Part shown: positions 3,669 to 64,000 of the stretch, piece after piece
How positions within the stretch are numbered: the first letter of the stretch is position 1
Layout of the letters: each line of letters opens with the position of its first letter
Assembly: GCA_947176505.1 (NCBI GenBank)
Contig: CAMWQW010000008.1
Coordinates: 110,429-174,428, forward strand
Direction of reading: 5' to 3'
Source: an uncultured Lachnospiraceae bacterium
Lineage (GTDB): Bacteria > Bacillota > Clostridia > Lachnospirales > Lachnospiraceae
DNA: 64,000 bases
Notes under the pieces: generated by a model
What the model was told of the DNA's origin: nothing
What the model saw: only the letters and a program-made list of their open reading frames with translations
Database searches by the model: none
Made by a program: the position numbers and the translations under genes

Positions 3669-3684
3669 GGAGAAAATGTATTCG

Positions 3685-5406: not shown

Positions 5407-5445
5407 TATATAAAGTATTACAAAAATCTATGCTTGGCAAGCTAA

Positions 5446-6399: not shown

Positions 6400-6635
6400 A
6401 GTTGGCTCCTTTATGCTTTGTATATTAATAAATAATTTATATATTTCAATTGTATTGATTACTTATATGTTTATCTTATATTGATATTATACTTGATAAT
6501 TTAATTTCTTACAAATATCCATGTAAAATTATTTTCTATTACTTTTCATAATAATGGATTTAGTATATGATAAAAATAACGGAAAGGTTGTTTGACAGTG
6601 ATTATAGATTTAAATGTTTTGTGCGGAGATAATTT

Positions 6636-7625
6636 ATGGATACGGCAAATTTAGAAATTATTCAATCAATATATGATGAAATGAAGAAAGAAAAAATAAG
6701 GAAGTGCTCTGAGTTAGATGAAAGAAAAAATAGAATTTCTGAGATAGATGTATATCTTAATAGCCTTCTAAATAAAGATGAAAGCGATTTAAGAGTATTT
6801 CTTCCTCGAAAAGTGGAAGATGTATATCGTGATGTTATAGAACAGAATAATCAGCAAAAAGAGCAGTTAATTGCTGAATGTGATGAATTGGAAAAACAAA
6901 TTCATTTACAGGATAGTAGGATTGATCAACTTGAAAAAGTTATTGCTGATAAATCATCTATGTTGCACGTGAAACAACTTTCTATGCTGGATGTTCAGGA
7001 AAAGGAACGTCAAAGGATAGCAAGAGATTTGCATGATACTTCTTTACAAAATCTTACACATCTTATTCATAAAGTTGAATTAAGTTCTCTTTATATAGAT
7101 CAAGATCCTATTAAAGCTAAATTGGAATTAGCGACGGTTGAGAATGGAATCCGCAAAGTTATTGATGATATTAGAAATAGCATATTTGATTTACGTCCAA
7201 TGACAGTTGATGATCTTGGTTTGAAGGATACGATAGAAAAGTTACTCGTTGTTTTGAATCAGGACAAACAGTTTCATGTAATAACTGATATTGATCAAAT
7301 AGATAGAATATATTCTGATTCATATTTACAGGTATTATTTATTTCTATTTATAGAATTATCCAAGAGTGTGTACAGAATTCTATTAAACATTCTAAGGGA
7401 AATGAAATTATTGTAAAGTTGAAAGATTGTGGAAAAATATATCGTATCTTGGTGAAAGATAATGGTACAGGATTTGATGTGAATGAGGCGTCTAAGAAAG
7501 ATAAACATTTTGGTTTATCAGTTATTAAAGAAAGAGTCCTGTTCTTGGGTGGAAAAATTAATATTGATGCGAGCTGCGGGACCACTATCGAAATTGAAGT
7601 TCCTAAGTCGGAGCTTTCTGTATAA
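6636..7625 (+). CDS. cytoplasmic sensor histidine kinase, DegS/NarX type
   Basis: A 329-residue kinase with no membrane segment. Residues 1-115 are mostly charged helix, probably coiled coil. The HisKA_3 dimerisation box follows with RDLHDTSLQNL and phospho-acceptor His133, then the ATPase domain with N-box QECVQNSIKHSK (about 243-254) and DNGTGF (about 275-280). The architecture (soluble coiled coil plus HisKA_3) resembles B. subtilis DegS. The stop lies 17 bp before the response regulator gene, so the two form an operon. The signal is unknown. The ATG is preceded by GCGGAGATAATTT. Confidence 0.92.
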   Translation: MDTANLEIIQSIYDEMKKEKIRKCSELDERKNRISEIDVYLNSLLNKDESDLRVFLPRKVEDVYRDVIEQNNQQKEQLIAECDELEKQIHLQDSRIDQLEKVIADKSSMLHVKQLSMLDVQEKERQRIARDLHDTSLQNLTHLIHKVELSSLYIDQDPIKAKLELATVENGIRKVIDDIRNSIFDLRPMTVDDLGLKDTIEKLLVVLNQDKQFHVITDIDQIDRIYSDSYLQVLFISIYRIIQECVQNSIKHSKGNEIIVKLKDCGKIYRILVKDNGTGFDVNEASKKDKHFGLSVIKERVLFLGGKINIDASCGTTIEIEVPKSELSV

Positions 7626-7641
7626 AGAGTAGGAGAAAATT

Positions 7642-8286
7642 ATGAAAATAAAAGTAATGATAGCAGATGATCACAGTTTGATAAGAGAGGGAATTAAACA
7701 ATTATTAGAATTCGATGGAACAATTGAAGTGATGGCTGAAGCATCTAATGGAGTGGATTGTCTTAAACAATTGAAAAATATTCACCCTGATGTATTGCTA
7801 TTAGATGTTAATATGCCGGAGAAAAATGGCTTGGAAGTTTTAGAGGAGATAAAAAGGAAAAATTATGACATTAAAGTTTTAATTTTGACAGTTCATAATG
7901 AATTGGAATATTTATTAAAGGCTGTTGATATTGGTGTAAATGGGTACATATTGAAAGATTCCGAATCTTCAGAATTAAAGAAAGCAATTCAAGCTGTGTT
8001 ATCTGGCGAAAATTATATTCAAGCCAGTTTGATTCCTGCATTAAATAATCGATTAGCAAACAGAGATATTGATAGAGATAAAATTGAATCATTGACAAGT
8101 AGGGAATTAGAGGTATTGATTCAGGTAGCTAACGGAATGTTTAATAAAGAAATTGCTACTAGTTTAAATATTAGTGAAAGAACAGTCAAAAATCATATCT
8201 CAAATATTTTCAAGAAGATAGATGTTTCTGATAGAACTCAGGCAGCTGTTTTTGCGATTAAGAATAATATTATTACACTTTTTTAA
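7642..8286 (+). CDS. response regulator, NarL/DegU family
   Basis: A 214-residue regulator with an N-terminal receiver and a C-terminal LuxR-type helix-turn-helix. Acidic pocket D9-D10, phospho-acceptor D55 (LLLDVNMP) and K105 are present. The DNA-binding domain includes LTSRELEVL and SERTVKNHISNIFKK. Cognate partner of the kinase immediately upstream (17-bp gap, start after GTAGGAGAAAATT). The pair is DegS/DegU-like in architecture, but target genes cannot be read from the sequence; the HAD gene 50 bp downstream and the divergent hydrolase are candidates. Confidence 0.93.
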   Translation: MKIKVMIADDHSLIREGIKQLLEFDGTIEVMAEASNGVDCLKQLKNIHPDVLLLDVNMPEKNGLEVLEEIKRKNYDIKVLILTVHNELEYLLKAVDIGVNGYILKDSESSELKKAIQAVLSGENYIQASLIPALNNRLANRDIDRDKIESLTSRELEVLIQVANGMFNKEIATSLNISERTVKNHISNIFKKIDVSDRTQAAVFAIKNNIITLF

Positions 8287-8336
8287 TTCTTTTGTTATTG
8301 AATGATTGCTTTGATTAGGAATAAGGAGTTTGAACT

Positions 8337-9005
8337 ATGGTTCGTGCTGTGATATTTGATATGTTTGAAACTTTAATTACTTTATATAGCAGTCCAATAT
8401 ATTTTGGACGGGAGATTGCAGAGGATGTGGGAATACCTGTGGAAGAGTTTCTTTCATTATGGGAACCAACGGAATATGATCGTAGTATCGGAAAGTTAAC
8501 TTTTGAAGATACGATGGAAATGATTCTTTGTAAATATAATTGTTATTCTAAAGAGCTTATTGAAAATATTAAGCAGAAGCGTATCGATACAAAGAGGGTA
8601 GCTTTTAAGCAGTTACATTCTGAAATTCTTTCTATGCTTTCTGAATTGAAAGAAAAGAAAATACTAATTGGTTTGATTAGTAATACATTTTCAGAAGAAG
8701 AAATTGTGATTCGTGAAAGTATATTGTTTCCTTATTTTGATGCTGTTTTTCTGTCTTCAGAACAAGGAGTATGTAAACCGGACAAAATGATTTTTGATAG
8801 ATGTATGCAGACTCTTTCTGTGAAGCCGGAAGAGTGTCTTTATGTTGGTGATGGTGGAAGTTGTGAATTAGAAGCAGCACGAGAGCTGGGAATGGAGGCT
8901 GTTCAAGCTGTTTGGTATTTAAAAGAAAATACTATGCAGCCGGTGGGGAGAAAAGAGGAGTTTCTTGGACTTGATAATCCACTTGATGTGTTAAAATGGT
9001 GTTGA
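8337..9005 (+). CDS. HAD-superfamily hydrolase
   Basis: A 222-residue haloacid dehalogenase-like protein. Motif I is FDMFETL with nucleophile Asp8; the usual second Asp of the DxD motif is Phe, as in dehalogenase and YjjG-like branches. Motif II is LISNT, motif III includes the KPDKMIF lysine, and motif IV is GDGGSCEL, where the usual last Asp is Glu. A helical cap follows motif I. It probably hydrolyses a small phosphorylated or halogenated metabolite; the substrate is unknown. The ATG follows AATAAGGAGTTTGAACT. It is the last gene before the parS region. Confidence 0.85.
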   Translation: MVRAVIFDMFETLITLYSSPIYFGREIAEDVGIPVEEFLSLWEPTEYDRSIGKLTFEDTMEMILCKYNCYSKELIENIKQKRIDTKRVAFKQLHSEILSMLSELKEKKILIGLISNTFSEEEIVIRESILFPYFDAVFLSSEQGVCKPDKMIFDRCMQTLSVKPEECLYVGDGGSCELEAARELGMEAVQAVWYLKENTMQPVGRKEEFLGLDNPLDVLKWC

Positions 9006-9023
9006 AAATAACATAGTAGGACA

Positions 9024-9039
9024 TGTTTCACGTGAAACA
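9024..9039 (+). promoter_or_regulatory. parS: parS centromere site 1
   Basis: A 16-bp perfect palindrome TGTTTCACGTGAAACA, identical to the Bacillus parS consensus bound by ParB/Spo0J. It lies 345 bp upstream of parA. Confidence 0.97.
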
Positions 9040-9083
9040 TTTTAAAAATATTTACCTATATTTGGATTATGGACACAAGATAA

Positions 9084-9099
9084 TGTTTCACGTGAAACA
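9084..9099 (+). promoter_or_regulatory. parS: parS centromere site 2
   Basis: Second exact copy of the parS palindrome, 60 bp (centre to centre) from the first. Spaced pairs of parS next to parAB near the origin are the normal nucleation platform for ParB spreading and SMC loading. Confidence 0.97.
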
Positions 9100-9125
9100 A
9101 ATTCACCCAAGATATTGTGAATGAA

Positions 9126-9173
9126 AGCGTGAAACATTTTATATTTATACAACAAATAGAGCGTGAAACATTT
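9126..9173 (+). repeat. two parS half-sites in a 14-bp direct repeat
   Basis: AGCGTGAAACATTT occurs at 9126-9139 and again at 9160-9173. Each contains the right half of parS (GTGAAACA) without the left half. They lie just downstream of the two full sites, in the same orientation and 34 bp apart. The rest of the 9006-9368 gap shows a TATAAT at 9281-9286 that may be the parA -10 box, and no gene. Confidence 0.7.
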
Positions 9174-9368
9174 ATTTGTAAATGTATTTCAGATAAATTA
9201 ACTGTTTTCATGAATAATACAATTTAGAAAGTTATTTTTATCTGTAATAAATTCCTATAGATTATCCCATGATTTAGTGATATAATCGTAAACGGACAGA
9301 AAAAGAAACTATTTTGGAGAGAAACGTTTTGTCGAAATACAAAACGAAAGGTAGAGGAAGAAATAAGT

Positions 9369-10136
9369 ATGGGAAGAACGATTGCAATAGCAAATCAGAA
9401 GGGCGGAGTTGGTAAGACAACAACTTCAATTAATTTATCTGCGTCATTAGCAGAGAAAGGAAAGAAAGTATTAGTAATTGATACGGATCCACAGGGAAAT
9501 ACAACAAGTGGATTTGGTGTTGAAAAAAATGATTTAGAGAATACGATTTATGAGTTGATATTAGGAGAATGTTCTATTAATGAGTGTATTTTAAGTGATG
9601 TAATTCCGGGAGTATCAGTTATTCCTTCTAATGTTAATCTGGCAGCAGCGGAGATTGAATTGATTGGAGTTGATAAGAAGGAATACATATTGAAATCAGA
9701 AGTTGATTGGATTAAGGACAAGTATGATTTTATTATTATTGATTGTCCTCCGTCATTGAATTTGCTTACTATTAATTCTATGACTACAGCAGATTCCGTG
9801 CTTGTACCTATCCAATGTGAATATTATGCGTTGGAAGGTTTAAGCCAATTAATCCATACTGTTAATTTGGTAAAGGAGAGATTGAATCCTGATTTAGATA
9901 TGGAGGGCGTTGTCTTTACTATGTATGATTCCAGAACGAATCTGTCGATGCAGGTAGTGGAAAATGTCAAAAATCATTTTAAGCAGAATGTATATAATAC
10001 TGTAATACCTAGAAATATCAGATTAGCGGAAGCCCCCAGTTACGGAATGCCAATTAGCATGTATGATCCTAAGTCTGCGGGTGCAGAGGCGTATATGTTA
10101 CTGGCGGATGAAGTAATTAACAGAAAGGATGCATAG
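9369..10136 (+). CDS. parA: chromosome partitioning ATPase ParA (Soj)
   Basis: A 255-residue ParA/MinD-type ATPase. The deviant Walker A KGGVGKTT is at 11-18, IIDCPPS forms Walker B, and there is no N-terminal DNA-binding extension, so it is the short chromosomal Soj type. With ParB and parS it drives origin segregation and regulates DnaA in related bacteria. The ATG is preceded by GAGGAAGAAATAAGT. The 3' end abuts parB, giving a classic two-gene operon directly downstream of the parS cluster. Confidence 0.97.
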   Translation: MGRTIAIANQKGGVGKTTTSINLSASLAEKGKKVLVIDTDPQGNTTSGFGVEKNDLENTIYELILGECSINECILSDVIPGVSVIPSNVNLAAAEIELIGVDKKEYILKSEVDWIKDKYDFIIIDCPPSLNLLTINSMTTADSVLVPIQCEYYALEGLSQLIHTVNLVKERLNPDLDMEGVVFTMYDSRTNLSMQVVENVKNHFKQNVYNTVIPRNIRLAEAPSYGMPISMYDPKSAGAEAYMLLADEVINRKDA

Positions 10137-10140
10137 GAGT

Positions 10141-11031
10141 ATGGCAGTAAAAGTAAAAAGAGGTTTAGGTAAAGGGCTGGACGCAATGATTCCTGTTCCG
10201 GAAAGTTCATCACCTGAAAAAGTAGAAAGTAAGCCGGAAGACAAAGTGTCGGAAACCATTGTTAAGATTACACAGGTAGAGCCGAACAGAGAGCAGCCAA
10301 GAAAGAATTTTGATGAAGACGCTTTGCAGGAACTGGCTGACTCTATTAAACAATTCGGACTTTTACAGCCTATTCTGGTTCAGGATAGAAAGACGTATTA
10401 TGAGATTATCGCCGGTGAACGTCGATGGCGTGCTGCCAAGCTGGCAGGATTAAAAGAGGTTCCGGTTATCATTCGTGACTATACTGAGCAGGAAATTGTA
10501 GAAATATCTCTGATTGAAAATATTCAAAGAGAAGATTTAAATCCTATTGAAGAAGCACAAGCATACAAGAGACTTTTGACGGAGTTTAATTTAAAGCAGG
10601 ATGAAGTGGCAGAGAGAGTTTCTAAGAGTAGAACGGCAGTGACCAATTCTATGAGACTTCTTAAATTATGCGATGAAGTGCAGCAGATGATTATAGATGA
10701 TATGTTGTCTACCGGACATGCAAGAGCATTGATTTCTATTGAAGATCCGGAACAGCAGTACACAATTGCACAGAAAATATTTGATGAGAAGTTAAGTGTC
10801 CGTGATGTTGAGAAGCTTGTCAAGAATTTGAATAAGCCGGAAAAGCCTAAAAAAGAAATTGTAGAAGATAAGAGTCTGGAGATTATTTATCAAGATATAG
10901 AAGAAAAACTCAAGCAGTCTCTTGGCACAAAAGTTGAGATTTCTCCTAAGGGAAACGGAACCGGTAAAATCGAGATAGAATTTTACAATCATGATGATTT
11001 AGATAGGATTATTGAGTTGTTATCTAAATAG
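10141..11031 (+). CDS. parB: chromosome partitioning protein ParB (Spo0J)
   Basis: CTPase and parS-binding protein. The N-terminus KRGLGKGLDAMIP is the ParA-activating segment. The ParB/Srx box follows, with EPNREQPRKNF, then AGERRWRAAKLAGL. ENIQREDLNPIEEA leads into the helix-turn-helix (EVAERVSKSRTAVTN) and a C-terminal dimerisation domain. I place the start at ATG 10141 because relatives begin MAxKRGLGKGL; the upstream ATG 10129 overlaps the end of parA. Neither has a well-spaced ribosome site, so translation is probably coupled to parA. Confidence 0.96.
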   Translation: MAVKVKRGLGKGLDAMIPVPESSSPEKVESKPEDKVSETIVKITQVEPNREQPRKNFDEDALQELADSIKQFGLLQPILVQDRKTYYEIIAGERRWRAAKLAGLKEVPVIIRDYTEQEIVEISLIENIQREDLNPIEEAQAYKRLLTEFNLKQDEVAERVSKSRTAVTNSMRLLKLCDEVQQMIIDDMLSTGHARALISIEDPEQQYTIAQKIFDEKLSVRDVEKLVKNLNKPEKPKKEIVEDKSLEIIYQDIEEKLKQSLGTKVEISPKGNGTGKIEIEFYNHDDLDRIIELLSK

Positions 11032-11089
11032 AAATAATCAGCCTTATTGATACAGACGATAAGAAGCAGCATAGAAAGGTACGAAGTCG

Positions 11090-11611
11090 ATGAATTATAA
11101 TTTACTCCAACAGATAGGATTAGGCAATTTAGATTTGACATATTTATTTATTGCTTCATATGTATTGGTTCTTATTTTGATTATAATAACAATTGTTCAG
11201 ACAGTGAAAATTAATAAATTATCCAAACGATATAAGAAATTCATGTCGGGCAAAAATGCTAAAAGTCTGGAACAAGATATAGAAGGTATCTATGAAGACA
11301 ACAAATTTATTAAGACATCAACAGAGAAAAATCACAAAGATATTCAATCATTGTACAGAAAATTTGAGAGTGCTTTTCAGAAAGTCGGTATTGTGAAATA
11401 TGATGCTTATAATCAGATGGGAGGACAGCTTAGTTTTTCACTTGCACTTTTAGATGAAAACGATAATGGCTTTGTATTAAACTCTGTCCATGGCGCAGAA
11501 GGTTGTTATACTTATACGAAAGAAATTAAAAACGGAATGTGCGAAATCTCTTTAGGGGATGAAGAGAAAAGAGCATTAGATATTGCTATGGATATGATAA
11601 TAGAAGAATAA
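11090..11611 (+). CDS. DUF4446-like membrane-anchored protein
   Basis: A 173-residue protein with one N-terminal membrane helix (about 17-40) followed by a charged, probably coiled-coil stretch (about 45-105). A compact C-terminal domain contains VGIVKYDAYNQMGGQLSFSL and GFVLNSVHG. This arrangement and these motifs match the DUF4446 family, found next to parAB in many Clostridia; its function is unknown. It begins 58 bp after parB, with AGAAAGGTACGAAGTCG before the ATG, so it probably belongs to the par operon. A role near the origin or division site would be a guess. Confidence 0.85.
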   Translation: MNYNLLQQIGLGNLDLTYLFIASYVLVLILIIITIVQTVKINKLSKRYKKFMSGKNAKSLEQDIEGIYEDNKFIKTSTEKNHKDIQSLYRKFESAFQKVGIVKYDAYNQMGGQLSFSLALLDENDNGFVLNSVHGAEGCYTYTKEIKNGMCEISLGDEEKRALDIAMDMIIEE

Positions 11612-11644
11612 ATAGATATATAATTAGGGATGTGAGATTTGGGG

Positions 11645-11683
11645 TACAAATAGGGGATATAGAATTGATGATACAAATAAGGG
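11645..11683 (+). repeat. imperfect direct repeat upstream of the HD-GYP-like gene
   Basis: TACAAATAGGGG (11645-11656) and TACAAATAAGGG (11672-11683) are 27 bp apart, just ahead of the ATG at 11701. They might be a tandem regulator site, but could also be chance in purine-rich DNA. Confidence 0.3.
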
Positions 11684-11700
11684 TGTAGTGGGATAAAAAT

Positions 11701-12747
11701 ATGAAGGTATGCAATGTTGAAGAATTGGTAGGAGAGGAGATTTTGGCAAAAGATGTTTTTACGCCGGAATATCAGATACTCCTGTCTATGGGGACACAAT
11801 TAAAAAAAGAATATATTGAAAAACTTATTGAGCTTCAAGTCAAAGAAGTATGGATTGAAGAGAAAGAACCACATGCTAAGAGAGTTGTAATTCTTAAAGA
11901 GGAAGTTGAGGAGTCTTTTAAATCTAAAGTAAAGAGTATTTTGGAAAAACATACTTATAGTCATAACGAAGAATTGGAAGAGCTATGTCAAACGGCAGAT
12001 CGTATTATCACAAATATTCTTGAAGAGGATGAAGTAGTAGAACAAATATATGATATTAAAGGAAGAAGTTCTGATATTTATGAACACTCTATCAGTATAT
12101 GTAGTTTTGCTACAATCGTAGCATTAAAGATGAAGATTCCGAAACACATAATACATGACATAGGTGTCAGTTGTTTATTACATGATTTAGGGCTTCGCTA
12201 TCTGACAATTGACTATACGGATATTGATTTCTCTCAACTCCCGGAATCGGAATGTGCGGAATATAAAAAGCATCCGATTTATGGGTATACGGCTCTACGC
12301 GGTGAAAATTGGATTTCCAATGCAAGTAAAAATATGATATTATATCACCATGAGCGTTTGGACGGATCCGGATATCCCCTTAAGGCAACGGATATTTCTA
12401 AAGAGTGCAGGATTATACAAGTTTGTGATGCATTTGATGAAATGATATGCGGAATCGGATGTAAGCGCGTGAAAGTATATGAAGCGATAGAGTATTTGAA
12501 AAATTACAGGAACATTAAATTTGACGCTGAGATAGTCGATATCTTTTTAGAATTTACGGCAGTTTATCCCGCAGGAACTACTGTGCGGACAAGCGAGCGG
12601 GAAGTCGGGGTTGTTCTATATCAGAATAAAGAGTTTCCGGACAGACCGGTTTTGCGTATTATGAAAGATAAAGATGGTAATAGTGTTGATGTAGTTAAAG
12701 ATTTGATAGAAGTCAATAATGTATATATAGAAGAAGCTATTGATTAG
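11701..12747 (+). CDS. HD-GYP-like phosphohydrolase domain protein
   Basis: A 348-residue soluble protein. Residues 1-120 form an undefined N-terminal region. The catalytic domain shows the metal ligands in order: YEHSISIC, HDLGLRYL, HPIYGYTALR and HHERLDGSGYP, then the trailing ICDAFDEM-like VCDAFDEM. The signature is close to HD-GYP c-di-GMP phosphodiesterases, although the HDIGK lysine position is Leu-Arg, so catalytic activity on c-di-GMP is inferred, not shown. It lacks a receiver or membrane sensor. The ATG at 11701 has no strong ribosome site. It lies between the DUF4446-like gene and serS. Confidence 0.82.
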   Translation: MKVCNVEELVGEEILAKDVFTPEYQILLSMGTQLKKEYIEKLIELQVKEVWIEEKEPHAKRVVILKEEVEESFKSKVKSILEKHTYSHNEELEELCQTADRIITNILEEDEVVEQIYDIKGRSSDIYEHSISICSFATIVALKMKIPKHIIHDIGVSCLLHDLGLRYLTIDYTDIDFSQLPESECAEYKKHPIYGYTALRGENWISNASKNMILYHHERLDGSGYPLKATDISKECRIIQVCDAFDEMICGIGCKRVKVYEAIEYLKNYRNIKFDAEIVDIFLEFTAVYPAGTTVRTSEREVGVVLYQNKEFPDRPVLRIMKDKDGNSVDVVKDLIEVNNVYIEEAID

Positions 12748-12801
12748 CGTAAGAAAACTTTTAAAGTTTACACCAGAGCAATATGCAGGAGGAAGAATAT
12801 T

Positions 12802-14079
12802 ATGATAGACATTAAATTTTTAAGGGAAAATCCCGATATTGTTAAGGACAATATTAAGAAGAAGTTTCAGGATAGTAAACTTTCTTTAGTGGATGAAGTA
12901 ATTGAATTGGATGCGGAAGTCCGTAAAACACAACAGGAAGCCGATGATATCCGCGCCAACAGGAACAAAATCTCTAAAGAAATCGGCGCGCTTATGGGAC
13001 AGGGTAAGAAAGAGGAAGCCGAAGCAAAGAAAGCAGAAGTTGCTGCAAATGCTACCCGTCTTGCTGAATTGGAAGCAAAAGAGAGCGAGCTTCGTGAGAA
13101 GATCAGGAAAAATATGATGACGATTCCGAACATTATTGATCCTTCAGTGCCGATTGGTAAAGACGATTCGGAAAATGTCGAGATACAGAAATATGGAGAG
13201 CCAATTGTACCGGATTTCGAAATACCTTATCATACAGAAATCATGGAAAGATTTCAGGGGATTGATATGGACGCAGCAGGACGCGTGGCAGGTAACGGAT
13301 TCTATTATTTGATGGGAGACATTGCAAGATTACATTCGGCTGTTATTGCTTATGCGAGAGATTTTATGATTGGCAGAGGCTTTACTTACTGTGTACCGCC
13401 TTTTATGATCAGGAGTGCAGTTGTAGATGGCGTCATGAGTTTTGCTGAGATGGATGCTATGATGTACAAAATTGAAGGAGAAGATTTGTATCTGATTGGA
13501 ACTTCTGAGCATTCTATGATTGGTAAGTTTATCGATACGATTATTCAGGAGGAAGAACTTCCGCATACATTGACCAGTTATTCTCCATGTTTCCGTAAAG
13601 AAAAAGGTGCGCACGGTATTGAGGAAAGAGGCGTTTACCGTATTCATCAGTTTGAGAAACAGGAGATGATTGTTGTGTGCAAACCGGAAGAGTCTCCTAT
13701 GTGGTTTGAAAAATTGTGGCAGAATACAGTAGATTTATTCCGTTCTTTAGACATTCCGGTAAGAACAATTGAGTGTTGTTCCGGTGATTTGGCAGATTTG
13801 AAAGTAAAATCATATGACGTGGAAGCATGGTCTCCCAGACAGCAGAAATATTTTGAAGTCGGAAGCTGTTCTAATTTAGGGGATGCACAGGCAAGAAGGC
13901 TGCGTATTCGTGTAAACAGTAAAGACGGTAAATATTTTGCGCATACGCTCAATAATACAGTGGTTGCACCACCCAGAATGTTGATTGCATTCTTAGAAAA
14001 TAATTTGCAGGCTGACGGTTCTGTTCGTATTCCGGAAGTGCTTCGTCCTTATATGGGAGGCATGACAGAGATTCGATAA
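12802..14079 (+). CDS. serS: seryl-tRNA synthetase
   Basis: Class II aminoacyl-tRNA synthetase charging tRNA-Ser (and tRNA-Sec where present). The N-terminal helical arm (about 30-105) is the tRNA-binding coiled coil. The catalytic domain has GTSEHSMIG, class II motif 2 in FRKEKGAHG, and motif 3 in GDAQARRLRIR. At 425 residues it is full length. The start at 12802 follows CAGGAGGAAGAATATT. It sits 54 bp after the HD-GYP-like gene, probably cotranscribed with it or with the following gene. Confidence 0.98.
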   Translation: MIDIKFLRENPDIVKDNIKKKFQDSKLSLVDEVIELDAEVRKTQQEADDIRANRNKISKEIGALMGQGKKEEAEAKKAEVAANATRLAELEAKESELREKIRKNMMTIPNIIDPSVPIGKDDSENVEIQKYGEPIVPDFEIPYHTEIMERFQGIDMDAAGRVAGNGFYYLMGDIARLHSAVIAYARDFMIGRGFTYCVPPFMIRSAVVDGVMSFAEMDAMMYKIEGEDLYLIGTSEHSMIGKFIDTIIQEEELPHTLTSYSPCFRKEKGAHGIEERGVYRIHQFEKQEMIVVCKPEESPMWFEKLWQNTVDLFRSLDIPVRTIECCSGDLADLKVKSYDVEAWSPRQQKYFEVGSCSNLGDAQARRLRIRVNSKDGKYFAHTLNNTVVAPPRMLIAFLENNLQADGSVRIPEVLRPYMGGMTEIR

Positions 14080-14115
14080 ACTGTCTTGTATCATTTTGAA
14101 AAGGAGGTGGAATTT

Positions 14116-15000
14116 TTGCATAAATTTATGCGAGCTATTGGTTTTAGCAAATTAACTGATAGACGGGAACAGCAAAAGCTTGTTACGGATATTATTTTAA
14201 ATGCGTCGCATCGTTCTTATACGTCCAATGGTGAAGAAACCATACTTGCAGAATTTTGTGAAGATTTTGCCAAGGATATGGGTATTGCCGTTTGTGGTGA
14301 GTTTGATGAGAACGACAGATTTACTTATGATTACTTCTATCCTTATCTGCGTGGCACCGGGATTAGTTCGTGTGAAGATGTGTCCGTGGAACGACATGCA
14401 GATAAAGAATCTTATGCGGGAGTCTGTGATGATATTAAAGTTGGTGTAAGCCTGATTTTTTATCTGCAAAACATGGTGCCCTATGTTAAGGCACAGTATG
14501 AGAATACTTTGCCAATCAGGGGAACGACTCTCACGCTGTCGGGATTATCGTTGAAAGGCAGTATATTGCTGCCAATCAGCAAGAATGAAAAACAGAAGCA
14601 AAAGGTACAAAAAGCATCCATGAATAGAAACCAGTTGATTGATGCAGCCAGAAAAGGCGACGAGGATGCCATCGAGACTTTAACTTTGGAAGATATGGAC
14701 ACTTATACATCCATCTCTAGGAAAATACTGACAGAGGATGTGTTTAGTCTGGTAGATACGTATTTTATGCCATATGGTGTGGAGTGCGACCAATATTCTA
14801 TCATGGGAGAAATAATGGATATATCTCTTCGGACAAATAAGATTACCAAAGAAGAAATCTATGTGATGCATTTAAGTTGTAACGATCTGCAGTTTGATGT
14901 ATGTATCAACAAACAGGATTTGTACGGAGAGCCACAAGTAGGAAGAAGATTTAAAGGTGTTGTCTGGATGCAGGGATATATTAATTATCCTTCGGTTTAA
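14116..15000 (+). CDS. DUF3881-like protein of unknown function
   Basis: About 294 residues, soluble, without recognisable catalytic motifs. N-terminus HKFMRAIGFSKL and the middle sequence VKAQYENTLPIRG resemble the DUF3881 family of Lachnospiraceae. The frame is open from 14086, but AAGGAGGTGG at 14101-14110 points clearly to the TTG at 14116, which also fits the family N-terminus. The predicted product contains SLKGSILLPISKN and a basic linker (about 158-175), then an acidic C-terminal part. It follows serS by 36 bp. Function unknown. Confidence 0.72.
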   Translation: MHKFMRAIGFSKLTDRREQQKLVTDIILNASHRSYTSNGEETILAEFCEDFAKDMGIAVCGEFDENDRFTYDYFYPYLRGTGISSCEDVSVERHADKESYAGVCDDIKVGVSLIFYLQNMVPYVKAQYENTLPIRGTTLTLSGLSLKGSILLPISKNEKQKQKVQKASMNRNQLIDAARKGDEDAIETLTLEDMDTYTSISRKILTEDVFSLVDTYFMPYGVECDQYSIMGEIMDISLRTNKITKEEIYVMHLSCNDLQFDVCINKQDLYGEPQVGRRFKGVVWMQGYINYPSV

Positions 15001-15004
15001 TGTT

Positions 15005-15033
15005 TTGACATTCGGCGCAAAGTTCTTTATAAT
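15005..15033 (+). promoter_or_regulatory. perfect sigma-A-type promoter
   Basis: TTGACA (15005-15010), a 17-bp spacer, and TATAAT (15028-15033) match the consensus exactly. It starts 5 bp after the DUF3881-like stop codon and points at the tRNA-like sequence and tRNA-Arg, so it is probably the promoter of a stable RNA transcript. Confidence 0.85.
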
Positions 15034-15048
15034 AGGAATAGTTTATAA

Positions 15049-15080
15049 ATGAAAAATTTGTCTTTTGACAGATTTTTCAT
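15049..15080 (+). other. 14-bp stem, 4-nt loop hairpin in the tRNA leader
   Basis: The arm 15049-15062 pairs with 15067-15080 (one G-T wobble) around a TTTT loop. It lies just after the predicted transcription start and has no T-run after it, so it is unlikely to be a forward terminator; a processing signal or a 5'-protecting hairpin are possible. Confidence 0.6.
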
Positions 15081-15083
15081 ATA

Positions 15084-15180
15084 AGTTGGTGTAGCACAGT
15101 GGATAGTGCAGCCGCCTCCTAAGAAAGTGTTATAGCACCCGCCTTGGGAGGGAAAGAAAAATGTTACGAGTTCCACAATT
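15084..15180 (+). pseudogene. broken tRNA-Arg-like sequence
   Basis: The first 40 nt resemble the 5' half of a tRNA. There is a D stem GCAC/GTGC (15094-15097, 15106-15109) with loop AGTGGATA, then an anticodon stem strand GCCGC and loop CTCCTAA. After G15123 the match stops: the 3' anticodon strand, T arm and acceptor strand are missing. Instead, CTTGGGAGG (15143-15151) pairs with CCTCCTAAG (15115-15123) in a new hairpin. The sequence CCGCCTCCTAAG is shared with the intact tRNA-Arg downstream (15226-15237). It may be a decayed tRNA gene, a recombination scar or an unusual structured RNA. Confidence 0.55.
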
Positions 15181-15197
15181 TAATAGTTTTTATAAAT

Positions 15198-15274
15198 GTT
15201 TCCGTAGCTCAGTTGGATAGAGCGACCGCCTCCTAAGCGGTAGGTCGGGTGTTCGAGTCACCTCGGGAACGCCA
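15198..15274 (+). tRNA. tRNA-Arg, anticodon CCT
   Basis: Full cloverleaf: acceptor GTTTCCG with CGGGAAC, D arm GCTC/GAGC, and anticodon stem ACCGC/GCGGT around CTCCTAA. The T arm is GGGTG/CACCT with TTCGAGT; the discriminator is G at 15271 and CCA is encoded at 15272-15274. It reads AGG codons. A terminator follows 8 bp later. Confidence 0.97.
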
Positions 15275-15281
15275 AAAACCC

Positions 15282-15314
15282 CGCCGAAAACCTATAAAAT
15301 CAAGGTTTTCGGCG
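15282..15314 (+). terminator. rho-independent terminator after tRNA-Arg
   Basis: CGCCGAAAACC pairs with GGTTTTCGGCG across an 11-nt loop. The T-run is weak (TTTCATATTTTT). Confidence 0.85.
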
Positions 15315-15426
15315 TTTCATATTTTTAAAAAAATGTGTTATACTAATCTTACTAAAATTTCCGAGTAGGCAGGTCATAATCCTGCTGTCAGATAAATCGT
15401 TGCCAGAAAGGGGCAGATTTATATAT

Positions 15427-45893: not shown

Positions 45894-46316
45894 TTACCGC
45901 AGTAAAGCCATGCTTCCAGTCAATTTATTGACTTTCTTTTTTGCACCACAAATCGCAATTCCAAAATAATTTAAGTCAATTTCTGATACTTCTTTCATCT
46001 TCTCTATAAATTCATCATAAGCCTTGCATCCCTGCGCTAAATCTGAAAAATCAACGACAGTCAAATCCGAAAAGCCCGGCTCATACAATTTTTCACGAAT
46101 AGTTTTTATTATATCTGCGTTGCCTTTCAAAATGGGTACGGGAAATTCAATAATTCCTAAATGTTCATTCCCGGTTCTGTCGTATACATCAGTACCAACG
46201 ACTTCCGGCATTTTCTTTCCTAAAGTGATACCCATGATAGCCGCCGTATTTGCGATTATTCCCAACGGCAGATTTTCATCAATTACCATAACACACTTTT
46301 CATTTTGTAAATCCAT
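45894..46316 (-). CDS. DUF2000-like protein
   Basis: A 140-residue soluble protein. MVIDENLPLGIIANTAAI near the start and VVGTDVYDRTG, then GIIEFPVPILKG, match the DUF2000 family (peptidyl-tRNA hydrolase-like fold, function unknown). AAAAGGAGGGCTAAAAA gives a strong start at 46316. It is the last gene of a minus-strand set AraC-EamA-DUF2000. Confidence 0.8.
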   Translation of the reverse strand: MDLQNEKCVMVIDENLPLGIIANTAAIMGITLGKKMPEVVGTDVYDRTGNEHLGIIEFPVPILKGNADIIKTIREKLYEPGFSDLTVVDFSDLAQGCKAYDEFIEKMKEVSEIDLNYFGIAICGAKKKVNKLTGSMALLR

Positions 46317-46319
46317 TTT

Positions 46320-46436
46320 TTAGCCCTCCTTTTGATAACAACGGTAAAGATACGCTTTATGAAATCCTGATTCTCTGTAATGCGCTAATAGCTTTTCATT
46401 CTCTGCTGTATTCAGAAAGAAACAGCCCGACAACGG
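46320..46436 (-). pseudogene. possible 3' gene remnant overlapping the EamA gene
   Basis: A minus-strand frame, open from 46436 to a TAA at 46320, reads FLNTAENEKLLAHYRESGF and ends in YLYRCYQKEG. This looks like a natural protein end, perhaps of an acetyltransferase, but has no start. It overlaps the last 41 bp of the EamA gene and carries the DUF2000 ribosome site. Weakly supported. Confidence 0.3.
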
Positions 46437-47277
46437 CTAATATTGTTCCTGTTATAGAAAGAAATGTAACCGTTTCTTTCAGTATCAGCATAGACGTTAT
46501 AAGGGTTATGACAGGAACCATGTATATGTAAATGCTTGTTTTAACTGCCCCTAATATTTTTACAGCATAATTCCATGTTACAAAGCAGAGGGCAGACGCT
46601 CCGATTCCCAAATATAAAATATTGAGCAGATTTGTCATATCCATAAAACGCAACGCATCTAACTGAAAGTCAAACAGGAATAGTGTAGGTATCATAAACA
46701 AAATGCCATAGAAAAATGTCCTGCGTGTTGTAAGGATAACAGGGAGCCCAAAACTACCAATCTTTTTTGTCAAGATAGAATAGCAAGCCCATACAAAAGC
46801 GGCGGCAAATGCTAAAATATCTCCAGCAGGATTTAATTTTAGCTGTGAGCCATTGAAGCTAATCAATATAATTCCTGCCATTGCAACAATAAAGCCAATA
46901 AAAAAATTTATTTGTAACTTTTCTTCTGACTTCATAAACAGGTGCGCCAATATTGCGGTAATAAACGGAGCTACGGATATAATCACACCTACATTGGAAG
47001 CCATTGTATAAGTCAATGCAACATTTTCCAGCAAATAGTATAGACATACTCCACAAAAGCCCGCAGCGGCAAAGGTTATTTCCTGTTTCTGGTTTAATCT
47101 CTTTATGCGGTGCGGATATGCTATCAGTAAAACCAAATAGCCCATAATAAAACGGAAAAATAAGATTTCCACGGGCTGAAAGTCTGCAAGCAAGATTTTT
47201 GTGGAAATAAAGGTAGTTCCCCATATAAGGATTGTAATCAGAGCAGCCAAATGCCCTGTGCGTTTTTCTGTCACCAT
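46396..47277 (-). CDS. EamA/DMT family transporter
   Basis: About 293 residues with ten membrane helices in two EamA repeats. The first half has ILIWGTTFISTKIL and LFFRFIMGYLVLL; the second has FAAAFVWACYSILTKK and YLGIGASALCFVTWNYAV. Likely exports a metabolite or amino acid. The frame is open far upstream into the AraC gene, but the start ATG 47277 directly follows the araC stop (one base between), with AGGGCGG ahead of it, giving coupled translation. Confidence 0.9.
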   Translation of the reverse strand: MVTEKRTGHLAALITILIWGTTFISTKILLADFQPVEILFFRFIMGYLVLLIAYPHRIKRLNQKQEITFAAAGFCGVCLYYLLENVALTYTMASNVGVIISVAPFITAILAHLFMKSEEKLQINFFIGFIVAMAGIILISFNGSQLKLNPAGDILAFAAAFVWACYSILTKKIGSFGLPVILTTRRTFFYGILFMIPTLFLFDFQLDALRFMDMTNLLNILYLGIGASALCFVTWNYAVKILGAVKTSIYIYMVPVITLITSMLILKETVTFLSITGTILAVVGLFLSEYSRE

Positions 47278-47278
47278 T

Positions 47279-48109
47279 TTATTCACCGCCCTTATCTTTT
47301 TCAAAAAAGATTTCACGGTACACTCCCGGCGCAAGCCCGATAAAACTGGTAAAATAATTTGTAAAGTGGCTTTGGTCGGAAAAACCTGTCCATATTGCTG
47401 CGTCAAGGGGAGATACACCGTTTGACAACAGTTTCTTTGCTTCATTGATACGGATTGTTTCTAAATAACGGTATGGGGTAATCCCCTTTGATTTCGTAAA
47501 TGCCCTAAGAAGCGTTGACTTGCTTAGTCCTGCTTGGCGACAAATCTGGTCTAAATAAATACGCTCCGTAAAGTGCTGTTCCATAAACATACAGGCTTTT
47601 TCAATTTCCTGTCTACACTCTGGAATACAGCTTTCAAAAGGCTGACCATAATTCTGAATCAAACTGGACAACAGGAGCAACAAATTTTCTTCTTTTCCGA
47701 AGTCGCTGTTTCCATTCATCACCATTTCATGTAGTGGGCGCAGATAGCAGATTACTTCATCATCACAAATCACATTCTCTGAAAATCCCGGAAGTTCTCG
47801 TTTCCCTGTCACTTCCTCTGCCAAATCAAGCATAATTTCTTTGCTGATATTAAAGCCACGGTAGTCCAATGTACCATTATCAGACTGTACGCAAGCATGG
47901 TTATCGCCCGGATTAAATAAAACAACATTTCCCTGTCCAATCGTGTAGTCTATGTTCCTGCAAGACAGACAGCGTTCACCGTTCTCTACAAAACCAATCA
48001 CATAATGCTCATGAAAATGGTTTGGAAACGGCTGAACGATTCCCTCAAAACGGTAGGCTTCAATCCGCAATGATTCATCATAAACAACGGTTCTGATTTC
48101 TTTCTTCAT
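47279..48109 (-). CDS. AraC family transcriptional regulator
   Basis: A 276-residue regulator: N-terminal cupin domain with FPNHFHEHYVIGFVENGER and VVLFNPGDNHAC, and C-terminal double helix-turn-helix (about 170-270) with GLSKSTLLRAFTKSKGITPYRYL split at the turn, and GFSDQSHFTNYF. It is immediately upstream of the EamA transporter and probably controls it. Start at 48109 after GCAAGGAGGAAATTTGA. Confidence 0.92.
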   Translation of the reverse strand: MKKEIRTVVYDESLRIEAYRFEGIVQPFPNHFHEHYVIGFVENGERCLSCRNIDYTIGQGNVVLFNPGDNHACVQSDNGTLDYRGFNISKEIMLDLAEEVTGKRELPGFSENVICDDEVICYLRPLHEMVMNGNSDFGKEENLLLLLSSLIQNYGQPFESCIPECRQEIEKACMFMEQHFTERIYLDQICRQAGLSKSTLLRAFTKSKGITPYRYLETIRINEAKKLLSNGVSPLDAAIWTGFSDQSHFTNYFTSFIGLAPGVYREIFFEKDKGGE

Positions 48110-61382: not shown

Positions 61383-61413
61383 ATTATAAACGCTTCCCTA
61401 ACGGAAGAGTCAA
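61383..61413 (-). promoter_or_regulatory. MerR-type promoter with dyad in a 19-bp spacer
   Basis: On the minus strand: TTGACT (61413-61408), a 19-bp spacer, TATAAT (61388-61383). The spacer contains CTTCC-GTTAG-GGAAG. Over-long spacers with a central dyad are the hallmark of MerR-activated promoters, which the regulator remodels by DNA distortion. Confidence 0.88.
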
Positions 61414-61583
61414 CCGTAATTATTTCATGACACAAACGCCATCTTTTATGACATAATCCTGCAAAAACAGCTTGCTTTTGGATCTTTTGCGGGGATTTTC
61501 ATTTTTGCAATGAAACTTTTTCATAGAGTCATTCGTATTATTGATAAAGGATATTGCGTGCTAAACGGAAGGAGATGGTCGGT

Positions 61584-61709
61584 ATGAAATTTGACCGGGC
61601 GGTCTTGAACGACAGATGGACCGCAGTATCAAAAACAATGGAGGATTTGAAAGATGAGCATAAGTGGAATAGGACAAAATTACTATCAGAACAATGTACT
61701 AACGAATAA
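61584..61709 (+). CDS. possible 41-residue overlapping small ORF
   Basis: GGAAGGAG lies 9 nt before ATG 61584. The frame reads MKFDRAVLNDRWTAVSKTM and ends 56 bp inside the next gene, in another frame. It could be a leader peptide or a coupling ORF; coding is unproven. Confidence 0.3.
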   Translation: MKFDRAVLNDRWTAVSKTMEDLKDEHKWNRTKLLSEQCTNE

Positions 61710-62226
61710 GTATAACAAAAGTATAGCCGGACAATTTTGCCCTCAGAAGCAGGCAGCAGAGGCATCTGCTCCCGGAGGCACAAGGCAGAATGCCAACGTG
61801 CAGGATATTTATGGGGCGCTTAAAGCAACAAATCCGTTAACGGAGCAAGAGGAAAGCACCATATCAGAGGATAGCGGTCTGCAGACATGGTATGGTGATA
61901 AGACATTGGAGGAATGGGCGACAACTGACCCGAAATATACGGACAAAGAAACAGGTTTTTCATGGTATGTCAGGGATGGAAAGCATCCCTATATAATAGG
62001 GGAAGATGCGGCAAAGTTTAAGGAAATGTGCAAAGAAACGGGTGAGTCGTGGCTGAAAAAATTTGCAGAAATGGTAGGAACGATACAGCATCTTGATGAT
62101 AACACAACTGCTTTTGTAGGAACAAATGGCACGGTAATTAAATCAAAAGATGGGAAGGAGCTGTCTATTGACACGTCATCCATGACCTATGATATGATTA
62201 TGAATATGTTTAAGAATTTACCATAA
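61654..62226 (+). CDS. unknown 190-residue protein, M-x-I-S-G-x-G family
   Basis: Begins MSISGIGQNYYQNN after ATGGAGGATTTGAAAG. Residues 1-60 are low in hydrophobics and rich in Asn, Gln, Ser, Thr, so probably flexible. A folded domain follows with TWYGDKTLEEWATTDP and FSWYVRDGKHPYIIGED. The C-terminus is KDGKELSIDTSSMTYDM and MIMNMFKNLP. There is no signal peptide or membrane helix. It opens a same-strand array of five short genes. I do not know the function; the N-terminal motif recurs in two neighbours. Confidence 0.72.
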   Translation: MSISGIGQNYYQNNVLTNKYNKSIAGQFCPQKQAAEASAPGGTRQNANVQDIYGALKATNPLTEQEESTISEDSGLQTWYGDKTLEEWATTDPKYTDKETGFSWYVRDGKHPYIIGEDAAKFKEMCKETGESWLKKFAEMVGTIQHLDDNTTAFVGTNGTVIKSKDGKELSIDTSSMTYDMIMNMFKNLP

Positions 62227-62236
62227 GGAGGGGACT

Positions 62237-62641
62237 ATTTTAACAGAGGTAAGTATCGCGGTTTATAAACCTAAGGATTTCGACGCGGCAAATCCGGTCT
62301 ATCATGTGAAGACATGGGATGCGGACGGTGATATGACAGAACGAATGGTGGACATTTCAAAGATTGATCCGAAAAACTGTGATGAGGTAGAAATGTCGGC
62401 ATACTCTTGGTATTTGAGTAACAGTGGACAGTGTCCGAATGCTTTTCTGGGTTTTGCCGTCGCACGCAGGCACAATCAAAGCAAACAACTGAAGTATGAT
62501 GCCGGCAGTGTGTTTGATAAAGTTAACTGGATAGATATCATCAGAGATTTTATGCAGATGCAGTATGATGCGCATAACATGAACGGATATCTGGATTATA
62601 AGAAGCTGTTGGGATTCATGGAAATAAAGAGTCAGCAATAG
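62237..62641 (+). CDS. unknown protein with apparent ATT start, array member 2
   Basis: About 134 residues. The frame is open upstream of the only normal start (GTG 62306), and the extra part reads VSIAVYKPKDFDAANPVYH, natural for this domain. AAGGAGGGG at 62225-62233 is well spaced for ATT 62237; no ATG, GTG or TTG is available there. The core MVDISKIDPKNCDEVEM aligns with HINKINPKCATVVEM in the gene at 63278, so the two are paralogues. The M-x-I-S-G start motif is absent here. Either a rare ATT start or a gene that lost its 5' end. Confidence 0.55.
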   Translation: MLTEVSIAVYKPKDFDAANPVYHVKTWDADGDMTERMVDISKIDPKNCDEVEMSAYSWYLSNSGQCPNAFLGFAVARRHNQSKQLKYDAGSVFDKVNWIDIIRDFMQMQYDAHNMNGYLDYKKLLGFMEIKSQQ

Positions 62642-62674
62642 AGTCGATAGAAGATAGCAGGGAGGAGAATGACA

Positions 62675-63208
62675 ATGGGATTAGGAGCATTATCACCGAA
62701 TCAACGGAATAATTGGAGTTACGGGGAACAACATACAGATTATAACCGCAAGGGTGGAGACATTCAAGGAACATTTGCGGATGCTGTTTCCAAGGCGGGC
62801 ATCGAAGGGAAAGAGTTCGGTACGGAGGCAGATGGTGGTACGAAGAAAACTGCAAGACAGTATCGGGAACAGATTTTTGACCAAATTGCACCTAATGCGC
62901 CACAGAAGGTAAGGCAGGCGTGGCTGGATGCGGCAGATGTGGCGGGAGTGGACGGTATGGGTGTTTCCAATTCAGGGAAGCTCAGCCACATTTCTCAGCT
63001 CATGGTGCGGAGTTTGGAGAAAGGATATCGAGATAACGGTGTATGTGATTTGTTAGGAAACTCTGTGCAGTCTGCTATCTGTGCAGCTAAAGAAGCATTG
63101 TATTCATTGGAACATCCTTTGGGACCGAGCCAAGGCAGGACGGCTGAGCAGATTGAAAACAGGATGAAGGAGAAGTTATTTTATCAGGAATTTCTTAAGC
63201 GGCTTTAA
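62675..63208 (+). CDS. unknown 177-residue protein, array member 3
   Basis: Starts MGLGALSPNQRNNWSYG (an in-frame ATG 6 bp upstream at 62669 is possible). GCAGGGAGGAGAATGACA precedes it. A flexible N-terminal third is followed by a helical C-terminal part with VRQAWLDAADVAGVDGMGV, then LSHISQLMVRSLEKGY and LLGNSVQSAICAAKEALYSL. The C-terminal pattern is one I associate with hypothetical proteins of Lachnospiraceae, without a known role. No signal peptide. Confidence 0.68.
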   Translation: MGLGALSPNQRNNWSYGEQHTDYNRKGGDIQGTFADAVSKAGIEGKEFGTEADGGTKKTARQYREQIFDQIAPNAPQKVRQAWLDAADVAGVDGMGVSNSGKLSHISQLMVRSLEKGYRDNGVCDLLGNSVQSAICAAKEALYSLEHPLGPSQGRTAEQIENRMKEKLFYQEFLKRL

Positions 63209-63277
63209 GAGAATAGTTACTAATCATAAAGCATTGACATCATACAGTGAAAACTTTAGAAAGGGAGCAATGGGAAG

Positions 63278-63823
63278 ATGTATATTAACGGAATAGGAAA
63301 AACAGGTTATCCGATGGCAGGGTTTGGAGCAGGAAGGACACAGCAGAATACGACAGAAAAAAGTTTTGCCAAGCAGTTAAACCATGCGGCAAATATACCA
63401 AAAACCTATCAGATTTATATGCCGGAGGAAGATATGCTGTATTCCGGCGGAAATGGAACAGGTCTATCCTTTTATCTCAAATATGCGGAAAATTCAACGG
63501 AAGATGACCCGACAGTCATCGCGAAGGGTGTTGATGAGAATGGAGATGAATTTGAAAAGACCATACATATCAACAAGATAAACCCTAAGTGTGCAACTGT
63601 TGTAGAGATGCGGGCGTTGGAGGCGCATTTGGGTGTAAGCAAACTGGGAGGCTTCACTTCCCTTCCGTTGGAAACCGGGGCTATGGGATTAAATGACCGG
63701 ATGGATTTTATGGATATGTTCCAAAAGCAGATTAGTGATATGCGGCTGTTAAGTCAAAAGAGGGCTGAGGCATATTACCGGTACAGTATGCAGGCGTATT
63801 GGGATTTCATGCATAGGAAATAA
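63278..63823 (+). CDS. unknown 181-residue protein, M-x-I-N-G-x-G family, array member 4
   Basis: Starts MYINGIGKTGYPMAGFG after AAAGGGAGCAATGGGAAG. Residues 1-50 look flexible, with KSFAKQLNHAA, a short amphipathic helix. The central part (VDENGDEFEKTIHINKINP) is paralogous to array member 2. The C-terminus is helical and charged, MFQKQISDMRLLSQKRAEAY. No signal peptide or membrane helix. Function unknown. Confidence 0.7.
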   Translation: MYINGIGKTGYPMAGFGAGRTQQNTTEKSFAKQLNHAANIPKTYQIYMPEEDMLYSGGNGTGLSFYLKYAENSTEDDPTVIAKGVDENGDEFEKTIHINKINPKCATVVEMRALEAHLGVSKLGGFTSLPLETGAMGLNDRMDFMDMFQKQISDMRLLSQKRAEAYYRYSMQAYWDFMHRK

Positions 63824-63866
63824 AGTTGGCTTTAAGTAAGTGGAATTAAGGAAGGGCAACTTGAAA

Positions 63867-64000
63867 ATGGCAATCAGCGGACTTGGAAATGAAGACGGTG
63901 GGAAGCTGGGACAGTTATATGTGGTATGATAAGTGGATTAGTGATATAATTCTTAAGGAAAGTATCAGATTCAGAGCGGCAACAAAAAAAGAACAGTTTA
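63867..64000 (+). pseudogene. fifth array member, broken or cut by window end
   Basis: AAGGAAGGGCAACTTGAAA precedes ATG 63867, which reads MAISGLGNEDGGKLGQLYVV and then stops at 63927. In another frame, open to the window end, the sequence continues SYMWYDKWISDIILKES. The family start motif followed by a frame break suggests a frameshifted copy; alternatively the real gene starts at ATG 63889 in the second frame. Confidence 0.45.

Follow-up and report, generated by a model that had tools for sequence, protein, structure and literature searches.

A two-hairpin RNA leader shared with the hook gene flgE precedes arrays of N-terminally tagged proteins, putative flagellar export cargo, in Lachnospiraceae

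What kind of protein system keeps one short start on many unrelated bodies? The question is raised by the end of a 64,000-nucleotide stretch of DNA from an uncultured Lachnospiraceae bacterium (contig CAMWQW010000008.1; the whole stretch is called the window below), where four open reading frames (ORFs), p1 to p4, and a stub follow one another as an array. The initial annotation, made from the letters alone, had proposed a modular, duplicating system whose N-terminal tag could serve non-classical secretion. A structured RNA leader ahead of p1 had escaped it, and this leader, rather than the tag, is the strongest element that the arrays share. One and the same predicted two-hairpin leader stands before the hook gene, flgE, and before array genes that encode many different bodies. 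We infer, with moderate confidence, that the array proteins are cargo of the flagellar export apparatus, translated in step with the hook.

The leader came to light through unexpected BLAST matches of the stretch upstream of p1 to the upstream regions of many array genes. It consists of a first hairpin (H1) with the loop GGAC, a second hairpin (H2) around UGAnYGACAGA, and then the ribosome-binding site, which reads AAUGGAGGA in 66 of 111 leaders. Leaders were chosen upstream of tagged genes by the pattern of the H2 loop, present in 111 of 233 distinct upstream regions, or 68 once near-identical sequences are removed. Nine of the 68, for which no two-hairpin fold is predicted, were left out of the set A4 and of two of the search models: R1 holds 59 leaders, the window included and flgE excluded, and R3 holds 58 array leaders with neither the window nor flgE. 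A further model, R2, includes five flgE leaders. Over the base pairs counted (6 + 7) and with all 68 leaders restored, 89.2% of cells are paired, against 81.6% after shuffling (0 of 500) and 33-59% when slid, and 73 cells are changed on both sides, against 31.8 shuffled. The 59 leaders of A4 give 91.9% of cells paired and 60 cells changed on both sides, against 22.5 shuffled.

The p1 leader is found by R3 with E = 9.9e-7 over the 64 kb, and by R1, of whose 59 sequences it is one, with E = 7.6e-9; it is the only credible leader in the window. Across 41 sources, R1 yields 98 matches at E <=0.5. Seven of these (E 0.03 to 0.36, the flgE leader of the window's genome among them) were left out, and of the 91 that were placed, 77 end 7-66 nt ahead of a called start codon, four times that of flgE, and 14 do not. 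At E <=0.001, the R2 matches listed include 12 leaders in the window's genome: one ahead of flgE, one ahead of p1 and ten on three further contigs (C2, C24 and C9), where most precede array-type genes. Rfam (release 15) contains no match to window positions 61400-64000 up to E = 10; five array loci (E <=5) and four flagellar loci (E <=2) give only matches below the gathering score, none at a leader site. Transcription terminators were considered for H1 and H2 and dropped, no U-run being visible by eye after H2.

At flgE, whole-genome searches with R1 return weak matches just before the gene in three genomes of other genera (G264, G122 and G171; E 8e-4 to 7e-3). When R3 searches seven genomes' flagellar sequence, 167 kb in all, the seven best matches are the seven flgE leaders, with E from 1.5e-6 to 0.11, and the eighth-best match has E 0.82. 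The operons of the window's genome, G193 and G264 (about 150 kb) had been fetched before any leader was known, and on these R3 gives E 0.11, 0.0064 and 0.00056, respectively; the flagellar loci of G122 and G171 were chosen by their R1 matches, and those of G235 and G099 by R2 matches. FlgE was identified by NCBIfam in four genomes and by the start MMRS[LM][FY]SxV in the others. In a sample of 299 Lachnospiraceae genomes representing 298 genera, R2 has matches in 89, of which 88 possess flhA, the other being G235. Among 50 R2 matches listed, 47 lie on the flhA contig, all on the flhA strand, and in at least 46 genomes the match stands 9.8-12.1 kb upstream of flhA on the same strand, which is where flgE lies in the operons read. 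An R1 test on 18 genomes gave matches in all nine genomes chosen for having the p4 family, none in G060 (flhA present, no p4-family match), and, among eight genomes without flhA, one match (E = 0.003) inside a long ORF. The shared leader implies probable post-transcriptional control in common with the hook protein.

Searches of the open-licence literature found no conserved RNA motif reported at flgE; those on a flgE leader or the hook returned only work on Campylobacter CsrA and an unrelated S. aureus transcript map, and those on flgE mRNA only a Campylobacter sRNA paper and a Pseudomonas review. Among the papers listed by looser searches of the same literature, none concerned the array/leader system; nothing was found there on non-flagellar cargo of flagellar type III export in Lachnospiraceae, nor any paper naming DUF6033, DUF3879 or DUF4885.

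The proteins behind the leader were surveyed in loci fetched on account of their p4 relative. A profile of p4 and its relatives (A1, 5 rows) matches 36 of the 299 genomes; a scan of species genomes with a 14-row version (A2) gave 276 pattern matches, 196 of which encode a relative, and 80 loci were kept. Since the 103 fetched loci partly overlap (22 pairs with an identical 300-mer), protein counts were redone on distinct sequences. The record titles name Lachnospiraceae or other Clostridia, and several suggest mouse gut isolates; a non-pathogenic commensal with arrays is Eubacterium plexicaudatum ASF492 (L124). The start M.[IV].[GN] opens 274 of 1574 called proteins (242 distinct) in 104 loci, window included. 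Whole-protein clustering fused nearly all tagged families into 12 tagged clusters, and residues 56 onward were used instead; this gives 25 families in which at least one quarter of the members are tagged, a few of which are evidently there by chance, for instance a nucleoside-phosphorylase-like protein. In the gene maps, short proteins with like starts and differing bodies stand in arrays together with duplicated and shortened members. The modular, duplicating system and the recurrence of the motif on varied bodies beyond this locus, both expected at the outset, are borne out.

The tag is accompanied by a second element, [STGND]FxxxPhi/A beginning within residues 18-50; FxxxPhi is a form of the gate recognition motif of flagellar export. 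Among proteins selected by the tag alone, 153 of the 242 distinct ones carry it, against 22.9 ± 4.1 in 200 shuffles, whereas distinct untagged proteins stay at the shuffled level (171 of 1219 against 167.3 ± 11.8); with duplicates included, the counts are 174 of 274 and 183 of 1300. Counted per body family, the mean is 0.41 in the 25 tagged families (0.105 ± 0.059 shuffled) and 0.156 in 555 untagged families (0.163 shuffled). In the whole-protein clusters, FxxxPhi occurs in 7 of 12 against 3.2 ± 1.6 shuffled, and a stricter form in 3 against 1.4 ± 1.2. The p4 family and DUF6033-like proteins contribute most of the tagged proteins, and the element is present in 0.85 and 0.59 of their tagged members, respectively. 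Within 35 p4 relatives, F30 has an entropy of 0.71 bit, residues 31-46 range from 1.51 to 2.98 and residues 13-29 from 0.92 to 2.69; positions 1, 3, 5-7, 11 and 12 lie below 1 bit. The AlphaFold2 model of p4 has residues 1-44 below pLDDT 50 and a confident body (mean pLDDT 72.6), in keeping with the flexible N-terminus that had been supposed.

In Salmonella FlgD, residues 2-5 form a hydrophobic signal and residues 36-40 the gate recognition motif; the two must be separated by at least 26 residues, and the motif alone docks subunits at FlhB (PMC8983047). The F36 of p3 fits this spacing. By sequence, many array proteins share the layout of early, rod- and hook-stage substrates, namely a hydrophobic tag, FxxxPhi some 25-35 residues on and a predicted disordered stretch. 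FliK and the TIGR02530 protein of the operon in the window's genome have the same predicted layout: the FliK-like protein starts MTVNNVN and carries SFDKVM further on, and the TIGR02530 protein starts MKIQGNQ and later has SFQDIL. The tag is only half of the probable export signal. The secretion link first proposed for it is probable, and the route would be flagellar type III export instead of a non-classical one.

A flagellar-export prediction was set down before the result of the flhA search was seen. The gene is present in 154 of the 299 genomes. Of the 36 genomes that have the p4 family, 35 possess flhA, against 119 of the 263 that do not (Fisher p 2e-10, phylogeny ignored); for DUF6033 (PF19498), a frequent array member, the figures are 97 of 98 against 57 of 201 (Fisher p 2e-36, phylogeny likewise ignored). 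The DUF6033 exception, G235, has flgE (NCBIfam), flgD-like and TIGR02530-like genes on one contig, because of which the missing flhA is probably an assembly gap; counting G235 by its flgE, DUF6033 occurs within the sample only alongside flagellar genes. Outside Lachnospiraceae, flhA is found in 4 of 5 DUF6033 genomes and 17 of 49 others. By these profile searches, array families hardly occur outside genomes that carry flagellar genes. The window's genome itself has a flagellar operon (flhA at G000:C6:18538-20490), in which TIGR02530, FliE and FlgB exceed the NCBIfam cut-offs; the FliK, FlgD and FlgE models fall below theirs, with the FlgEFG subfamily model above its cut-off for FlgE.

In the mechanism we propose, the leader would tie translation of the array proteins to the stage of hook building, perhaps via CsrA. 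The proteins would then dock at FlhB through FxxxPhi, and the N-terminal tag would feed them through the export gate, to be released or placed outside; many arrays would be switched by the LytTR/GHKL pair beside them. Translation at the hook stage, a hydrophobic start and FxxxPhi would fit cargo of the rod and hook stage. Sequence gives good support to the shared leader and to the flagellar linkage, and export by the flagellum appears the most economical inference. A wider proposal, to which we give slightly less than an even chance, is that flagellated gut Lachnospiraceae export a large, fast-changing repertoire of small proteins through the flagellum, with an RNA shared with flgE timing their synthesis to the stage of rod and hook cargo. 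If true, an RNA element without an Rfam match would be joined to a route for host or community contact; released bodies would be candidates for roles in competition, signalling or host contact, and the leader shared with flgE would give a lead to many uncharacterised proteins of gut commensals, DUF6033 and others included.

For the leader, CsrA is perhaps the regulator, another binder being equally likely because H1 carries CGGA instead of ANGGA and nothing accounts for the H2 loop. A CsrA gene is present in all 30 leader-bearing genomes tested, 55 of the 59 aligned leaders have GGA at the H1 loop, and GGA lies within 25 nt of the start in all 111. Eight of these 30 genomes have, besides the normal CsrA, a further match that exceeds the cut-off and lies in a longer frame (93-132 aa), e.g. 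at G000:C5:97773-97922.

Several observations weigh against export cargo timed by a shared leader. The H2-loop conservation is built in by the pattern used for selection, and the association of R2 with flhA is built in to a degree, since R2 finds flgE itself. The flgE leader of the window's genome is the weakest (E 0.11 with R3, 0.047 with R1), the H1 loop of the window is GGU where most have GGA, and H1 bears CGGA, not the ANGGA of the Campylobacter flaA leader (PMC4894983). The p1 family and several others are without FxxxPhi at residues 18-50, and in p4 some 23 residues separate F30 from the tag, which runs to residue 7, whereas at least 26 are reported for Salmonella FlgD (PMC8983047). A position weight matrix made from the array proteins failed to separate flagellar substrates cleanly: FlgB of three genomes and TIGR02530 of G193 score high, FliK of the window's genome reaches 3.6 (90% quantile of the control, 4.1), and FlgD of that genome is not among the 28 matches listed. 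As a detector of flagellar substrates the matrix was too weak and was dropped. The flhA association figures take no account of phylogeny, G159 has the p4 family without flhA, and G606, from outside Lachnospiraceae, likewise lacks flhA and has DUF6033 genes. The G606 array is possibly contamination or transfer. It lies with two-component genes on G606:C11 (L218), and its flanks resemble genes at window positions 45894-47445.

The alternative that survives best, although we consider it unlikely, is that the array proteins are linked to the flagellum and kept in the cell, where they mimic the docking motif and act as assembly checkpoints, as plugs of the export gate, as decoys or in the regulation of hook building. 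The flgE leader would be shared and flhA would co-occur in the same way, docking at FlhB requires only the gate motif (PMC8983047), and no fold or enzyme domain is recognisable in the array proteins; the number and diversity of bodies and the copies per genome are, however, more effector-like in our judgement. Still less probable are selfish cassettes, spread by recombination between leaders, that picked up a flagellar N-terminus along with the flgE leader but play no part in the biology of the flagellum; co-occurrence would then reflect lineage. Many arrays are indeed fragmentary or at contig ends, some adjoin genes that look transposase-like, the junction of p1 and p2 resembles a deletion scar, and the co-occurrence with flhA was computed without phylogeny. 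Yet the 299 genomes span 298 genera, and of the 145 without flhA only one has the p4 family and one DUF6033, and the genome with DUF6033 also carries flgE and a flgD-like gene; moreover, F30 is kept within a variable stretch of the p4 relatives. A tag for some other non-classical route, such as a type VII-like system, is very improbable and was dropped: the tagged N-terminus is flexible and no signal peptide is recognised by eye in the array proteins, but the arrays are tied specifically to flhA and to the leader of flgE, which speaks against it, as does the lack of a secretion ATPase recognised by eye beside arrays in the maps read, where no family search was made.

Read as flagellar cargo, the arrays can be set beside known systems. 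Type III export through the flagellum is known to serve its own parts and, in some Gram-negative bacteria, a few effectors; there, secretion of non-flagellar proteins is represented by the Campylobacter Cia/Fsp proteins and by Yersinia. The likeness lies in non-flagellar proteins using the flagellar apparatus, putatively so in the arrays; unlike those cases, the hosts are Gram-positive gut commensals, the arrays are large and share a leader, and two-component genes lie beside many. With the early substrates FlgD, FliK and FliE (PMC8983047), the arrays have in common a small hydrophobic extreme N-terminus, a flexible N-terminus and, in many members, a candidate gate recognition motif around residues 30-40. 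In contrast, the array bodies match no rod, hook, cap or ruler protein and the copies are many and away from the flagellar operon; p4 has a shorter spacing and the p1 family has no FxxxPhi. The TIGR02530 protein resembles the array proteins in carrying SFxx[IV]L at about residues 35-45 in the seven flagellar loci read (by eye), and the copy of the window's genome matches the NCBIfam model above cut-off; its gene stands just before flgE, once per flagellar operon read, unlike the multicopy arrays, and p1-p4 do not match the model. DUF6033 differs from p1-p4 in that a PF19498 search gives these four no match. For the RNA, the closest comparison is the flaA leader of Campylobacter jejuni, a two-hairpin CsrA target (PMC4894983). 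Both leaders have adjacent hairpins, a loop GGA, a GGA at the ribosome-binding site and compensatory changes; they differ in the H2 loop UGAnYGACAGA and the H1 CGGA of the arrays, in the downstream genes, here flgE and array genes, and in that CsrA binding is putative here.

In the window (Table 1), four of the five same-strand units of the initial annotation are ORFs placed as described, and the fifth is a stub; the contig ends at window position 64000, and the only BLAST match of 63824-64000 to the fetched loci is this contig (best 60 lines). The full start motif belongs to p1, p4 and the stub, leaving out p3 and p2. The frame of p2 opens inside the domain carried by p4, the tagged N-terminus of the paralogues is gone, and R1 over the window finds no leader just upstream. 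The domain said to be common to p2 and p4 emerges when both are aligned with three paralogues elsewhere in the genome as one family, the two alone giving E = 0.17. The p4 paralogues in the window's genome are three tagged copies (two on C2, one on C24) and a C9 fragment (E = 0.006), and p1 and p3 match only themselves there. At 190 aa, p1 falls short of the 213-214 aa of its complete tagged relatives, which makes the boundary with p2 look like the scar left by a deletion. The array is a real but partly decayed copy of one widespread in Lachnospiraceae. As first stated, p1-p4 match no known family: Pfam, NCBIfam and PHROGs give nothing better than E = 0.058, and a phage origin was dropped for want of a PHROG match. 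Foldseek finds no credible match of the p4 model in the PDB (best E = 0.29), and the p4-family profile has two matches only among PDB sequences (E 0.4 and 0.55).

Table 1. Features at the end of the window.
Feature	Position	Strand	Description	Remark
Two-hairpin 5' leader of p1	61571-61627	+	H1 stem GGUC/GACC, loop GGUAUGAAAUUU	
p1 leader, H2	within 61571-61627	+	Stem GCGGUC/GACCGC around core UGAACGACAGA	
p1	61654-62226	+	190 aa, tag MSISGIGQNYYQNN (MSISGIG)	ORF confirmed
p2	62237-62641	+	134 aa, N-terminally truncated p4-family member, ATT at frame start, untagged	
p3	62669-63208	+	179 aa, start MTMGLG, TFADAV (F36-V40) export-motif-like element read in sequence	
p3 FxxxPhi element	62774-62788	+	F36-A-D-A-V40, same residue numbers as Salmonella FlgD gate motif (36-40)	
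p4	63278-63823	+	181 aa, tag MYINGIG, residues 1-44 disordered, folded body from about residue 50	
p4 FxxxPhi element	63365-63379	+	F30-A-K-Q-L34, short predicted helix 30-36, low-confidence region	
Fifth unit	63867-63929	+	20-codon stub ATG...TGA, begins MAISGLG	

The nearest gene upstream of the window array is, by appearance, a MerR-like regulator on the opposite strand. A secretion ATPase had been suggested as a conserved neighbour; what recurs instead is a LytTR regulator with a GHKL kinase, both present in 42 of the 80 loci (BLAST), and about 47 of 53 same-strand genes within 400 nt after the kinase are array-type by eye. No such pair lies directly upstream of the window array. Among the array bodies, DUF6033 and DUF4885 (PF16226) occur, and these alone exceed the Pfam cut-off for ten further array proteins.

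Several array families share a similar C-terminal motif (FDIKA, LDIQI, FDVKA; e.g. L051, L053, L105 and L107), observed without statistics. The loci L057-L063 (G193, G171, G122 and G004) hold members of 580-800 aa that start MSIAGL and contain stretches matching the p4 profile, some of them two. Tagged or DUF6033-matching genes also lie within RiPP-like clusters (L224, G000:C9:88000-104000, at 4661-11603; L217, G462, at 5020-15367), accompanied by genes that by appearance encode a short Cys-rich precursor, an ABC transporter, a protease and enzymes of 470-480 aa. In L014, a short-chain dehydrogenase-like gene occurs twice ahead of the C24 array (1844-2611 and 3353-4120), the starts about 1.5 kb apart and the encoded proteins identical.

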